The position numbers and the translations under genes were made by a program. Positions 1-15,263 of a stretch of DNA of 15,263 bases are shown one piece after another. The stretch covers positions 1-15,263 of the forward strand of contig CAKQBK010000064.1 in NCBI GenBank assembly GCA_934216155.1, in the 5' to 3' direction. The notes below the pieces were generated by a model, which was not told the origin of the DNA, did no database searches, and saw only the letters and a program-made list of their open reading frames with translations. This DNA comes from an uncultured Dialister sp. GTDB lineage: Bacteria > Bacillota > Negativicutes > Veillonellales > Dialisteraceae. The stretch's first letter is position 1, and each line of letters begins with the position of its first letter.

Positions 1-150
1 AAACTTGAGCAACCTGTCCCCACTAGCGGAATCATGTCTATTAACGCAAATCCTTAACTTAACAGCATTAATATATGGGGGTATTGGGGCACTTTATGAA
101 TTGTGTGCCCCTTCCACCACTCCTCATTCCTCACTCCTCACTCCTAACTG
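1..150. repeat. Right half of a composite palindromic intergenic element
   Basis: The window opens inside the right arm of a nonamer inverted repeat (GAGCAACCT at 7-15). Next comes the conserved ~40-bp motif (24-63, TAGCGGAATC...CTTAACTTAAC). Then a hairpin: GGGGCAC at 86-92 pairs perfectly with GTGCCCC at 105-111 around a 12-nt loop. Heptamer tandem repeats follow (CTCCTCA, TTCCTCA, CTCCTCA, CTCCTAA, 120-147). The same order of parts recurs at 7834-8131 and in degenerate form at 12431-12637. The left half lies outside the window. No gene lies directly beside it, so this copy is not tied to a stop codon in what can be seen. Confidence 0.8.
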
Positions 151-4312: not shown

Positions 4313-4600
4313 TAGAAAAGTGCGGAGTGGTGGAAGTGGTGGAAGTTGTACCGCTAAGGTATGAATAGCATTTGCGTTTATATCGCTGGCGCAGCCCCCT
4401 CTGCCTTCGGCATCTCCCCCAATGGGGGCGATAAATAAGGTGTAAACTTATTTACGCACAAAATTTGGAAGCGCCCAAATACCCTATTTTTTATAAAAAA
4501 TAAAATCGTAAATTTAAAAATATAATCTAATCCGCGGCGCTATATAATTTACGCGCCGCCACCACCATTTCTAACTTCTAACTTCTCACTTCTCACTGCT
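4313..4600. repeat. Composite palindromic element between mcsA and clpC
   Basis: The left part is a degraded heptamer region (GTGCGGAGTGGTGG, 4319 onward) plus a degenerate form of the conserved motif (around 4355-4388, with CATTTGCGTTTATATCGCT). The right part has the hairpin GCGGCGC (4534-4540) / GCGCCGC (4553-4559) around a 12-nt loop, then CACCACC and heptamers TAACTTC/TCACTTC up to about 4598. A weak counterpart of the second hairpin sits at about 4455-4485 (GAAGCGCCC then AATACCC). No nonamer arms are present; another palindrome (4391-4430) occupies the middle. The element would be transcribed with clpC if the operon reads through. Confidence 0.7.
4391..4430. repeat. GC-rich palindromic unit inside the mcsA-clpC repeat element
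   Basis: Two small hairpins lie side by side: TGCC-TTC-GGCA (4402-4412) and CCCCC-AAT-GGGGG (4416-4428). GCCCCC at 4394-4399 could also pair with GGGGGC at 4424-4429. The composition stands out sharply from the A/T-rich surroundings. It resembles short intergenic palindromes I recall from gut Bacillota, but I cannot verify that. Confidence 0.55.
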
Positions 4601-5677: not shown

Positions 5678-5705
5678 TTGATATGCCACTCTCCTTTGTC
5701 TTTAT

Positions 5706-5825
5706 AGGTTTCTCAGGTTACTCAAGTTTCTAAGGTTGCTCAGGTTCCTCGAATGTGCTACTTGACGTTTGCGTCTATAGGTACACTCGAGGAACCTTTA
5801 GAACCCTTAGAGCCTTGTGCAACCT
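5706..5825. repeat. Nonamer inverted-repeat element in the ctsR leader
   Basis: Five consecutive 9-nt units form the left arm (5706-5750: AGGTTTCTC, AGGTTACTC, AAGTTTCTA, AGGTTGCTC, AGGTTCCTC). Four inverted units form the right arm (5789-5825: GAGGAACCT, TTAGAACCC, TTAGAGCCT, then GTGCAACCT at the end). The innermost units, 5742-5750 and 5789-5797, are perfectly complementary. The core holds GACG-TTTG-CGTC (around 5764-5775). No heptamer or GC-rich hairpin layers are attached. It lies between the ctsR promoter and start codon, so it should be transcribed in the 5' leader. Confidence 0.85.
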
Positions 5826-5913
5826 GTTACCTCTATCGGAATTACACCGACTGTCTTATCATGATTGCATGTCCATGAGGCTCCTTTCATTGTTTACCTC
5901 ATTTCTATTTACT

Positions 5914-5941: not shown

Positions 5942-6021
5942 TAGTAAAATCAAAAAGTTTTTTAAAACTTATTCTATGAATGATATATACGGCTGATTCA
6001 GTAGGATGTATCATCGATTAC

Positions 6022-6187
6022 AGGTTGCTCAGGACGCTCAGTTTGCTCAAGTTTCTCAGGTTTCCTGAACGTGCCTATGGACGCTGGCGTATTCATGACA
6101 TATTCGGTCACAATGAATACACTATCGTGTATTAGCACATTTGAGAAACCTGAGCAACTTGAGCAACCTAAGAATCCTGTGCAACCT
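6022..6187. repeat. Nonamer inverted-repeat element between recX and ctsR
   Basis: The left arm has five 9-nt units (6022-6066: AGGTTGCTC, AGGACGCTC, AGTTTGCTC, AAGTTTCTC, AGGTTTCCT). The right arm has five inverted units (6143-6187: GAGAAACCT, GAGCAACTT, GAGCAACCT, AAGAATCCT, GTGCAACCT). The core (6067-6142) is longer than in sister copies and holds two competing hairpins: GTATTCAT/ATGAATAC and AATACAC-TATC-GTGTATT (the latter around 6116-6133). It sits just beyond the recX terminator and upstream of the ctsR promoter. Confidence 0.85.
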
Positions 6188-6192
6188 GTAAC

Positions 6193-7774: not shown

Positions 7775-7797
7775 AAAAACCTCCAAAAAAATCAGTT

Positions 7798-8131
7798 AGA
7801 AGTGAGGAGTTAGAAGTGAGAAGTGGTGATGCTGTTAAGTTAAGGATTTGCGTTAGTAGATATGATTCCGCTAGTGGTGACAGGTTGCTCAAGCTTCTAA
7901 GGGTGCTCAGGTTACTCAGGTTCCCCGAATGTGCCCATAAACGCTAGCGTCATTAGCTCATTCGAGAAACGTGAGAAACCTAAGGAGCCTGAGTAACCTT
8001 TCCCTCAGCAGAAATCATCGCATATTTTGCTTAACTTAACGGTATTGATATAAAAGGGGGGTATTGGGGGCACTATATGAATTGTGTGCCCCCTTCCACC
8101 ATTTCTAACTTCTCACTACTCACTTCTCACT
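7798..8131. repeat. Most complete composite nested-palindrome element, upstream of recA
   Basis: Layers from outside in: heptamers GAAGTGA/GAGTTAG (7798-7827) facing TAACTTC/TCACTTC (8104-8131); a hairpin on the right side only, GGGGGCAC (8066-8073) / GTGCCCCC (8086-8093) with a 12-nt loop; the conserved ~40-bp motif on the left (7834-7873) with a degraded mirror on the right (about 8006-8040), sharing perfect 11-bp ends GTTAAGTTAAG (7834-7844) and CTTAACTTAAC (8030-8040); nonamer arms 7882-7926 and 7964-7999; and a palindromic core ACGCTAGCGT (7941-7950). It fills the gap between the UPF0173 hydrolase stop and recA almost completely, ending 8 nt from the hydrolase stop codon. Confidence 0.85.
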
Positions 8132-8138
8132 GCCTTTA

Positions 8139-8804
8139 TTATAGTTCAATCGATTCACCGGGATGGACCACGGTGACTTCTACATCCTGTTCTTGTGCTG
8201 TTTCTTTAAATGCTTCCACATCCTGTTCAATCACAGGCCAGGTGTTGTAATGGAGCGGAATCACGTGTTTTGCTTTCAAAAATTTAGCGGCCATGATGGC
8301 ATCGTCAGGACCCATGGTATAGTTGTCCCCAATAGGGAGAATCGCATAGTCGATATCATAAAGTTCGCCAAAGAGTTTCATATCGCTGAAGAGAGCTGTA
8401 TCACCAGAGTAGTACACCGTCGGGCCTGCTTTGAACTGAATCACAAAGCCGCAAGGTACCCCACCGGCCACACCGGCACTGTGAAGAGCCACTACCATTT
8501 TCACAGTACCGAAATCAGCGTGATACTGACCACCCAAATTCATAGGCTGCAGGTTGACCACGGTCTTTGGAAATAACCCCAGTACTTCTGGAATAGCAAC
8601 TACCTTGGCCCCAGTCCGCTGAGCAATGGTGACCGCATCGCCGAAATGGTCTCCATGGGCATGGGACAGGAGAATATAATCACACTTCACCTTATCCGCT
8701 GCAATGGTGGCTTCGCTATTTCCTGTCAAAAACGGATCAAAAAGAAGTTTTTCACTACCAGTATCAATTCTGAAACATGCATGTCCAAAAAATGTGTACT
8801 TCAT
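8139..8804 (-). CDS. UPF0173 family metal-dependent hydrolase (metallo-beta-lactamase fold)
   Basis: A 221-residue cytosolic protein of the YtkL/UPF0173 family. The metal site is complete: HAHGDH (H48, H50, D52, H53), the later ALHSAG histidine, SGDTALF aspartate and IPLHYNTWP histidine. The N terminus MKYTFFGHACFRID is diagnostic. The physiological substrate of this family is not established. Start: ATG at 8804 with AGGAGG 7 nt upstream. It is flanked on both sides by repeat elements and has no operon partner: the nearest genes on either side are 260-365 bp away. A possible -10 (TATTAT, 8831-8836) lies next to nonamer repeats, whose CTGAGA could act as a -35; this is weak. Confidence 0.93.
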   Translation of the reverse strand: MKYTFFGHACFRIDTGSEKLLFDPFLTGNSEATIAADKVKCDYILLSHAHGDHFGDAVTIAQRTGAKVVAIPEVLGLFPKTVVNLQPMNLGGQYHADFGTVKMVVALHSAGVAGGVPCGFVIQFKAGPTVYYSGDTALFSDMKLFGELYDIDYAILPIGDNYTMGPDDAIMAAKFLKAKHVIPLHYNTWPVIEQDVEAFKETAQEQDVEVTVVHPGESIEL

Positions 8805-8840: not shown

Positions 8841-8997
8841 AGGGTTCTCAGGGTTCTCAGGGACCCTGAATGAGATAATGACGCTAGTGTCTATCGGCTC
8901 ATTCGAGGAACGTGAGAACCCTTTGTACCCTTAGAACCTTCAGAACCTTATGCTTACTAGCGAAATCATACCTACTAACGCAAATCCTTTACTTAAT
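8841..8997. repeat. Nonamer inverted-repeat element plus conserved ~40-bp motif
   Basis: Left arm AGGGTTCTC, AGGGTTCTC, AGGGACCCT (8841-8867); GAATGAG (8868-8874) pairs perfectly with CTCATTC (8899-8905); the core is GACGCTAGTGTC (8879-8890); the right arm of inverted units runs from about 8906 to 8950. The conserved motif follows at 8958-8997 (TAGCGAAATC...CTTTACTTAAT), about 36 of 40 positions identical to the 7834-7873 copy. No GC-rich hairpin or heptamers are attached, so this is a partial copy between the response regulator and the UPF0173 gene. Confidence 0.8.
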
Positions 8998-11130: not shown

Positions 11131-11132
11131 TA

Positions 11133-11299
11133 GTGAGAAGTGAGAAGTTAGAAGTGAGGAGTGAGAAGTGGTAGAAGGGGCGCATAATAATTTAGAAGCG
11201 CCCCAATACCCCCAATTTATAATATTCATTTCTGCGGCGCTTTATAAGTTGTGCGCCGCCACCACCATTTCTAACTTCTCACTTCTAACTTCTCACTGC
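11133..11299. repeat. Two-hairpin palindromic element between tsaD and the kinase
   Basis: This compact copy lacks the nonamer core. Five heptamers (11133-11167: GTGAGAA, GTGAGAA, GTTAGAA, GTGAGGA, GTGAGAA), then hairpin GGGGCGC (11177-11183) / GCGCCCC (11198-11204), AATACCCCC, an A/T-rich spacer, hairpin GCGGCGC (11234-11240) / GCGCCGC (11253-11259), CACCACC, and inverted heptamers to 11299. The two halves mirror each other. The right end lies 3 nt from the tsaD stop codon. Confidence 0.88.
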
Positions 11300-12325: not shown

Positions 12326-12357
12326 ATATTCTTCTTCCTTTATATTTATTGCTTGCA

Positions 12358-12637
12358 TTAGAAGTGAAAACGATGGAAGGGTATTATTCTGCTAATTACT
12401 TTCTCTAACATGTAACTAACAACGCCTACCAAAAGGGTATATAGGGTTATAAATGGTTATGCATCTACCGCAAGTTTCATAACCCTATATAACCCTTTTA
12501 ACCTTTTGACAAGCGGAGAAATTCGTATGTTAAGAGATGAATAGCAGTAGTACAATACCCATTTTAGCAACCTGCGGCGCTTTATAAATTATGCGCCGCC
12601 ACCACCATTTCTAACTTCTCACTTCTAACTTCTCACT
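12358..12637. repeat. Composite element with a different nonamer, between rimI and tsaD
   Basis: Left edge TTAGAAGTGA (12358-12367) is a remnant heptamer array. The inverted arms use another monomer: GGGTATATAGGGTTAT (12435-12450) faces ATAACCCTATATAACCC (12479-12495), complementary apart from one inserted base, with ...GGTTATG/CATAAC... inside. A degenerate conserved motif follows (AAGCGGAGAAATTC, about 12511-12524). Then hairpin GCGGCGC (12574-12580) / GCGCCGC (12593-12599), CACCACC and heptamers that run into the TAG stop of rimI (12636-12638). It occupies nearly the whole gap. Confidence 0.8.
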
Positions 12638-15145: not shown

Positions 15146-15151
15146 ATTATA
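15146..15151 (-). promoter_or_regulatory. Candidate -10 box of the patatin-tsaE-tsaB-rimI operon
   Basis: Minus-strand TATAAT (15151-15146) lies 32 nt before the patatin start and touches the nonamer array. The -35 position falls within the repeats (TAACCT at 17 nt), which is a poor match. Confidence 0.4.
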
Positions 15152-15263
15152 GGTTACTCAGGTTACTCAGGTTACTCAGGTTACTCAGGTTACTCAAGGT
15201 TCTCAAGGTTCTCAAGGTTCTCAAGGTTCTCAAGGTTCTCAAGGTTCTCAAGGTTCTCAAGGT
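15151..15263. repeat. Homogeneous nonamer tandem array, cut by the window edge
   Basis: Five identical AGGTTACTC units (15151-15195) are followed by seven identical AAGGTTCTC units (15196-15258) and a partial eighth. The period is exactly 9 with no substitutions within each block. The units match those in the arms of the other elements, so this is probably the expanded arm of one more inverted element whose other half lies beyond the window. Confidence 0.95.

Follow-up and report, generated by a model that had tools for sequence, protein, structure and literature searches.

Among the small repeats of bacterial genomes, pneumococcal BOX is a modular intergenic element, REP/BIME sequences are short palindromes linked to the RAYT transposase, and the short tandem heptamer arrays of cyanobacteria are known as STRR. 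We know of no mirrored tandem arrays as a feature of BOX, and the likeness of the element considered here to BOX, judged by description of the latter only, is that of a modular small intergenic repeat. Proteins of the bAvd type are linked to diversity-generating retroelements, and the bAvd entry PF22296 weakly matches an IVP protein (E 1.4e-4, below the cut-off). MITEs are short, gene-less and intergenic, have inverted ends and differ by presence or absence between relatives; the present element resembles them in all these respects and is unlike them in that its ends keep a period and a symmetry instead of a sequence, and in that no fixed target duplication was found. The heptamer arrays of cyanobacteria, Beggiatoaceae and other bacteria are likewise intergenic and sporadic, their horizontal transfer being regarded as possible by a mechanism that is not evident, while the TAACTGA sets differ from our element in being direct repeats placed mostly just upstream of start codons (PMC4679880). 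The text of that paper makes no mention of S23, four helix or palindrome; on cyanobacterial plasmids, IVP genes are flanked by such arrays (see below). Intervening sequences (IVS) of 23S rRNA, known here by description, are selfish and sporadic hairpin inserts located at stem-loops and having complementary ends around an S23 gene (PMC4990558); that paper also describes a ring formed by IVP and the cutting of IVP-carrying 23S rRNA inserts by RNase III, and ascribes no known function to PF05635 proteins, for which solved structures are available (2gsc, 2rld). Our inserts share with IVS the hairpin form and differ from them in lying between protein genes, in having arrays of 7-9 nt as ends and, in the copies from which we started, in lacking a gene. 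No report of IVP or S23 genes inside inverted short-repeat arrays was found in the accessible parts of the open-access literature on IVP, S23 and rRNA intervening sequences. Here, we describe a layered palindrome at positions 7793-8131 of a 15,263-nt contig of an uncultured Dialister sp. (the whole of this stretch is called the window) and relate it to PF05635 genes enclosed by mirrored arrays in several bacterial groups.

Genomic Setting and Layout of the Palindrome

The genes of the window are presumably clpC, mcsA, ctsR, recX, recA, a metallo-hydrolase, an ANTAR regulator and kinase, tsaD, rimI, tsaB, tsaE and a patatin-like gene; Pfam matches back the names of five proteins, the rest being named from sequence. 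The window's RecX shares 99% identity with a metagenome cluster and 53-60% with Dialister-named proteins. Relatives were taken from a protein search over 380 Negativicutes genomes, the closest falling into one family group of 12 genomes with G322, G326 and G327 at the head (hydrolase identity 74-77%). recA and the hydrolase gene, adjacent in the window (7787-8138), stand about 62 kb apart in G327 and about 293 kb apart in G322, so that this interval is a rearrangement point relative to these genomes.

The element measures 339 nt, carries inverted arrays of period 7-9, heptameric at its very ends, and has no coding capacity, only the ends of open reading frames reaching in; it sits between protein genes and not in a helix of 23S rRNA. 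In the palindrome scan, whose quoted scores come from a milder mismatch cost (a harsher one leaves a single peak of the window above threshold), it scores 56, compared with a best of 40 after shuffling the whole window 10 times under a first-order Markov model; the window itself has six peaks at 36 or more and five at 44 or more over 15 kb. The RNA fold of 7790-8140 reaches -145.2 kcal/mol compared with -93.3 (sd 5.5) in 100 shuffles (z -9.4), and the segments 7785-7828 and 8097-8140 are 82% complementary in the inverted-repeat comparison. The symmetry is imperfect, 43 of 57 columns being identical in the best local alignment of the arms, and the palindrome is real and far from chance. The earlier note on this DNA had four modules mirrored about one centre; that holds for the heptamers, the motif and the nonamer arms, while the GC hairpin stands on the right only and the inverted motif is degenerate (Table 1). 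An Rfam search of the element returned one chance-level match only (asX2, E 0.4; 24.5 bits, the gathering score being 70).

Table 1. Modules of the layered palindrome and its sister copies in the window (R1, model of the GC hairpin module; TRF, tandem repeat calls)
Feature	Positions	Evidence or remark
Left terminal heptamer array, AGAAGTG/AGAAGTT type	7793-7825	Direct reading; period-7 array at 7794-7825
Motif M, left copy	7829-7880	Inside 7829-7896, 94% complementary to window 1-68
Nonamer arm, AGGTTNCTC units	7881-7925	TRF period 9, 7881-7922
Centre, ACGCTAGCGT at 7941-7950	7926-7963	Direct reading and repeat families in window self-comparison
Inverted nonamer arm	7964-7999	Inverted-repeat comparison
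Motif M', degenerate inverted copy	about 8000-8046	Direct reading; partial pairing with M in RNA fold
GC hairpin with AT-rich loop TATATGAATTGT, then CCACC	8067-8092	R1 match 8067-8104, 47.8 bits, E 3.5e-10, by construction (the sequence belongs to the building set of R1)
Right terminal heptamer array	8103-8131	TRF period 7; 7 nt short of the stop-codon end of gene 8139-8804
Right half only, comprising M, a GC hairpin (86-111) and heptamers (118-149)	1-150	Self-comparison, R1, TRF
Sister copy whose left end is degenerate, with hairpin (4534-4559) and heptamers (4569-4597) at the right	4320-4600	Reading, R1, TRF
Nonamer palindrome alone	5704-5827	Palindrome score 54
Nonamer palindrome alone, the most regular	6018-6192	Arms 78% complementary; score 90
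Nonamer palindrome with one-sided M, in inverse orientation to 7835-7990	8841-8997	Self-comparison; score 38
Shell only: heptamers, two GC hairpins, heptamers	11132-11297	Palindrome score 80
Second copy of the full layout, differing in its stem (AGGGTTATA-like)	12355-12637	Palindrome score 62; R1 match 12574-12610
One-sided nonamer array at window edge, possibly the arm of a further copy	15151-15263	12.4 units (TRF)

Sister Copies and the Shared GC Hairpin

Seven sister copies or part-copies of the palindrome occur in the 15-kb window. Those that the earlier note had listed as carrying subsets of the modules (5704-5827, 6018-6192, 8841-8997, 11132-11297 and 1-150) were all recovered, and the copies at 12355-12637 and 4320-4600 together with the array at 15151-15263 add to them. 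Homology extends beyond the arrays: the right-half copy is 94% complementary to 7829-7896 over 68 nt, and 8841-8997 is 78% complementary to 7835-7990 over 156 nt, its own palindrome score of 38 lying below the best shuffle (40). In the copy at 4320-4600 the arms match weakly (18 of 24 columns), and the palindrome scan shows no peak; the copy also holds GCAGCCCCCTCTGCCTTCGGCATCTCCCCCAATGGGGG at 4390-4440, which looks by eye like repeats in the GC-rich complexes of G325 and G327. The right array of 12355-12637 overlaps the gene end at 12636. From the end of the copy to the stop codon of the upstream gene the distance is 7, 5 and -2 nt in three copies and 58 and 71 nt in two others. Near the right-half copy at 1-150 lies a PDDEXK_2 gene (Pfam; 670-1527) with an in-frame 12-bp tandem repeat (811-865), and a similar-looking frame adjoins an R1 hairpin in G326 (L164; by eye).

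The GC hairpin with its 12-nt AT-rich loop followed by CCACC is common to five window copies, G325 and G327. An alignment of 12 sequences (A2), which favours clean pairing by leaving out the window copy 11201-11166 (14-nt loop) and copies with 13-nt loops, pairs in 98.8% of its cells and has changes on both sides in 4 of 7 pairs, the remaining 3 being invariant. None of 500 shuffles reaches the observed number of cells with two-sided changes (18) or the observed covariation score (0.576); the count of four changed pairs is in itself no excess, being reached in 227 of the 500. The shell-only copy matches R1 at 11234-11270 (+) and at 11166-11204 (-; E 2.4e-4), the latter lying outside the model.

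A profile search with related genomes had been proposed as the check on the hairpin module, and it came out in favour of recurrence: run with stricter filters over 380 genomes of the class, R1 matches three, with at least 17 places in G327, at least 16 in G325 and at least 4 in G326, of which the first two supplied sequences to the model, leaving G326 as the independent genome (E 0.002-0.006). Dispersed homologous copies, of the kind that characterizes MITEs, are thus given by the parts found in the window and by the R1 module in G325, G326 and G327, and the palindrome family appears, within the genomes searched, to be confined to a small clade of Negativicutes which includes the Dialister-related host of the window. 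Three of the four R1 sites of G326 have arrays, on both sides in one (L161, identical with L168) and on one side in the others (AAAGGGG heptamers in L158, nonamers in L164). At L161/L168 the R1 hairpin (E 7.8e-5) stands directly behind a PF05635 gene (Pfam E 3.6e-37), its 12-nt loop TATATGAATTGT is the same as that at window 8067, and gene and hairpin are enclosed by a left array of GGATTGG heptamers and a right array of the inverse unit. An end module consisting of array, GGTGG or GAAGG and GC hairpin is in this way common to the gene-less palindromes and to the IVP gene of a sister species. Among the family's 14 IVP loci, however, this is the one at which the window's hairpin module is significant; L179 and L174 give only E 0.27-0.88.

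Presence and Absence among Related Negativicutes

The order patatin-tsaE-tsaB-rimI-tsaD-kinase-regulator-hydrolase is kept in G326, G322, G327, G324 and G321, allowing gaps to be compared. In the window the gaps rimI-tsaD, tsaD-kinase and regulator-hydrolase measure 277, 222 and 264 bp; by tblastn ends the same gaps are 24/36/57 bp in G326, 24/38/33 in G322, 23/117/1201 in G327, 12/38/90 in G324 and 23/overlap/48 in G321. Fourteen of the 15 matching gaps in these relatives, which are related at the family level, are therefore no longer than 117 bp, as expected of empty sites, and the fifteenth (G327, 1201 bp) is a nest of mirrored hairpins and AGGGTTCTTAAGTTTGAC units. These empty sites correspond to gaps of the window other than that of 7793-8131, whose junction between recA and the hydrolase gene is absent from the relatives read.

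G325 and G327, whose DNA around recA is 80-84% identical, differ by whole complexes present or absent at the same junctions (107 versus 703 bp and 334 versus 126 bp). Nine of 21 indel candidates from a BLAST comparison of the two were examined, and seven of the nine could be assigned, as two whole-complex differences, one difference inside a complex and four cases of another MITE, one of these four with a run of N. Filled and empty junctions among the relatives imply that the architecture is a property of the clade and that single copies come and go. The check by related genomes raised in the earlier note accordingly supports it, modules recurring together and whole inserts being present or absent at matching junctions. 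Palindrome peaks at 44 or more, part of which are ordinary terminators or MITEs, number 24 in 392 kb of G327, 4 in 102 kb of G325, 3 in 138 kb of G326 and 1 in 78 kb of G322, and seven further stretches from six relatives (129 kb) have none; the scan step was 3 in the window and 6 in the relatives, whose peaks may be slightly undercounted.

A search with DNA of the whole element found no match in the 12 family genomes and G001, and motif M has no match in viral contigs. The array pattern TTCTMAC occurs in one of the 380 class genomes (G160) and in 28 stretches of viral contigs; in G160, which has three PF05635 matches, the arrays stand by eye in inverted order too (L024, L025). One-sequence phmmer detected no IVP relative at the 32 TTCTMAC loci (the 28 viral-contig stretches and four of G160, three of them overlapping). 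An ordinary MITE of the sister genomes has the terminal repeat GGAAGCRCTGATTAA, a TTAA duplication and a clean empty/filled pair with flanks 94-97% identical; its sites are L081 near 19020, G327:C1 near 607340-607500, L076 (two places) and the G327 partner of L131.

IVP Genes inside Inverted Arrays

PF05635 loci were collected from the family (14), from two genomes of other groups (10), from samples of the classes of these two, tied to L002 (Anaerolineae) and L003 (Ignavibacteriae; 29 and 30 loci), and from further Negativicutes (28 new loci), with 30 ParE loci as control. Flanks were read up to 500 bp on each side, and loci with a flank shorter than 250 bp were dropped (10 of 111 IVP and 1 of 30 ParE). 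An array pair means arrays of the same period scoring at least 10 in both flanks, and inverted flanks mean an inverted similarity of at least 40. Array pairs accompany 53 of 101 IVP genes, which are the best-scoring matches of each search and not a random draw, with overlap among G326 loci (L171/L173; L174/L176/L178), against none of 29 ParE genes (Fisher p 3.4e-8); for inverted flanks the figures are 66/101 and 1/29 (p 6.5e-10). Across four IVP sets array pairs amount to 5/13, 19/30, 12/31 and 17/27 and inverted flanks to 10/13, 20/30, 15/31 and 21/27. The one class with its own control gives 12/31 versus 0/29 for arrays (p 1.4e-4) and 15/31 versus 1/29 for inverted flanks (p 7.7e-5). None of 300 random positions in DNA of G326, G322 and G320 passes either test. 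When flanks of different loci are paired crosswise, the inverted test is passed by 24, 39, 20 and 24 of 300, a null which is non-zero because array units resemble one another. At this threshold 48 of the 101 usable IVP genes are without an array pair.

The period is 7 in 46 and 8 in 7 of the 53 array loci, and the density of period-7 arrays is 1.3-3.1 per kb up to 300 bp from IVP genes, 0-0.25 farther off and 0.11 near ParE. In the first 36 array loci, having 35 distinct left units, 32 match better in inverted orientation, two in direct orientation and two tie. The unit varies from locus to locus and the two arms of one locus mostly agree. The oddest fact is that the period and symmetry of the arrays are kept and the sequence is not, as in G326, in which the terminal modules of L168 and L171 (56 and 94 columns) are 91% and 85% identical and L173 has parts of them at 80-84% identity to L168, and the arrays of the three are GGATTGG (7), TCGGGATTN (9, weaker, with scores of 10 and 8.5) and TCGTGAT (7), each mirrored within its locus.

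An IVP gene is present in 9 of 11 genomes with a match to the heptamer pattern versus 80 of 369 without, a post hoc comparison in which 10 of the 11 have matches to nothing but the reversed control, a pattern that is a period-7 array too. One-sequence phmmer detected neither an IVP gene nor a clear trace of one in the window (best E 0.027), so the copies there can only be gene-less relatives and not gene-carrying members. PF05635 likewise has no match in G325, with its R1 sites, and the sole IVP gene of G327 (L169) lacks an array pair.

Cyanobacterial Plasmid Junctions

In a plasmid search IVP relatives turned up in 28 records, of which 22 are cyanobacterial by genus name. Of 12 cyanobacterial loci read with flanks of 350 bp, 8 have inverted flanks of at least 40 and 7 have array pairs; in L286 and L290 8-nt arrays form weaker pairs (9.5 and 8), and L287, L288 and L289 have a left array only. 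The genes occupy junctions such as nrdB-nrdA (L279), cas6-cas4 (L280, L283) and cas10 with a Cmr3-family gene (L290), and several of the plasmid insertions abut stop codons.

Matching records without the insert are available for some junctions. The nrd junction is empty in L291 (40 bp; 2 of 2 matching records read). The integrase junction measures 2-3 bp in five of six other records and contains in L302 a 651-bp insert without inverted ends (score 24; 7 of 41 matching records read). At cas6-cas4, L306 is empty with 23 bp (4 of 14 matching records read); the Dolichospermum plasmid L292 carries there another palindromic insert of 245 bp (1120-1364, GTAGGTTGGGTT ... AACCCAACCTAC) where Anabaena sp. 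90 has an IVP element, which implies that this junction was hit more than once. The TraM junction, with 8 of 30 matching records read, exists in four empty, two IVP-filled and two gene-less palindromic forms. It is empty at 50-52 bp in L293, L294, L300 and L301 and has the order array-IVP-array in L284 and L297. L298 is by eye a gene-less palindrome of 260 bp (-72.4 kcal/mol) with heptamers clear in the right arm and irregular in the left, and L299 one of 340 bp (-87.5 kcal/mol) with short ATTCAAA-type arms. The left junction of L298 is common to the IVP-filled copies, and L298 could be a precursor of the filled state instead of its derivative; L299 is a separate insertion. Comparison of L299 with L300 gave the sole candidate target duplication, 7 of 8 bases, which thus concerns a gene-less cyanobacterial palindrome; no consistent target duplication was found.

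Origin of the Layered Palindromes

A non-autonomous mobile element, as the earlier note had proposed, remains the best reading of 7793-8131, since modules recur together, copies carry subsets of them and relatives vary by whole inserts. We go somewhat further and regard it as probable, by a modest preponderance, that the element is a MITE-like palindromic insertion representing the gene-less form of a wider IVP-element class, whose gene-carrying form has, under the same joint reading and with the same modest preference, one PF05635 gene (IVP or S23, a four-helix bundle) enclosed by inverted arrays with repeats of 7-9 nt. This assignment follows from the mirrored heptamer ends, the inner GC hairpin and a variable interior as in gene-less palindromes, and from ends lying near stop codons. 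On present sequence comparisons, the tie of the window copies to IVP is best read from this architecture and the one significant hairpin match.

Concentric layers might also come about, in keeping with the earlier note's other suggestion of elements that insert into each other, if palindromic arrays formed first and modules, the IVP core among them, then inserted into the hairpin loop in repeated rounds. Such an order would explain layers and subsets directly, would account for one conserved IVP core in different arrays and agrees with L298, a palindrome without a gene at the junction where L284 and L297 carry one; there is a precedent in rRNA, in which IVP inserts replace tetraloops of 23S rRNA helices (PMC4990558). 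At L291, L293/L294 and L295, however, arrays and gene are absent together and no hairpin is seen by eye in the empty site, and half of the IVP loci have no array pair although the core should always sit in a hairpin, which makes this route unlikely. Growth in place, by slippage producing tandem units and template switching within the fork producing the inversion so that nothing moves, would fit units that are locus-specific and agree between two arms, and work cited by PMC4679880 ranks heptamers as the most abundant category among these repeats in most genomes. It appears improbable given that dispersed copies are homologous beyond the arrays, that the R1 module is common to several species and that inserts span hundreds of bases at discrete sites.

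An ordinary MITE with no relation to IVP, mobilized by a host DDE transposase, would likewise be a gene-less, intergenic and multicopy element with inverted ends, the more so as the sister genomes do carry such MITEs (GGAAGCRCTGATTAA, TTAA); but the end sequences vary between the element's relatives, with only period and symmetry conserved, and the fixed target duplication is not seen, so we hold this to be very improbable. A regulatory RNA element selected operon by operon as attenuator, processing site or mRNA stabilizer receives the least credence: stable structure, stem pairs changed on both sides and placement between co-directional genes speak for it, and the element is missing from the matching operon junctions of relatives and matches no Rfam family above chance level.

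If the assignment to a gene-less form of an IVP-element class is right, the element would settle just behind stop codons, where disruption may be tolerated, its arms would stay complementary as one is recopied from the other when DNA snaps back, and array units would grow by slippage. Transcripts would fold into long hairpins, possible substrates of RNase III, which cuts 23S rRNA inserts with IVP. IVP might help to mobilize or maintain the element, with gene-less copies borrowing it; we know of no mobilizing activity of IVP. As a tentative extension, to which we lean less than halfway, IVP (S23) genes and heptamer-armed palindromes could form one class of mobile elements over several phyla, whose terminal arrays, instead of being inherited as a fixed sequence, would be generated anew at every site by a process of period seven and copied from arm to arm; heptamer arrays of cyanobacteria, TAACTGA-type arrays, 23S rRNA intervening sequences and the window palindromes would then be faces of this class, mobilized or maintained by the IVP ring. 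The puzzling short-repeat arrays of many bacteria may in this way be linked to one kind of mobile element. The tie between IVP and arrays, controlled and found in several bacterial groups, offers a setting for the protein and a partner for the arrays, and the named plasmids provide natural series of empty, filled and gene-less sites for testing mobility and array growth.

In an exploratory count, array units read outward contain a stop codon at 24 of 53 loci on each side compared with about 13 in shuffles (reached in 0 of 500), and units read inward do so at 29 and 30 of 53 compared with about 26 and 24 (reached in 93 and 19 of 500). A stop-bearing unit of period 7 or 8 closes all three frames.
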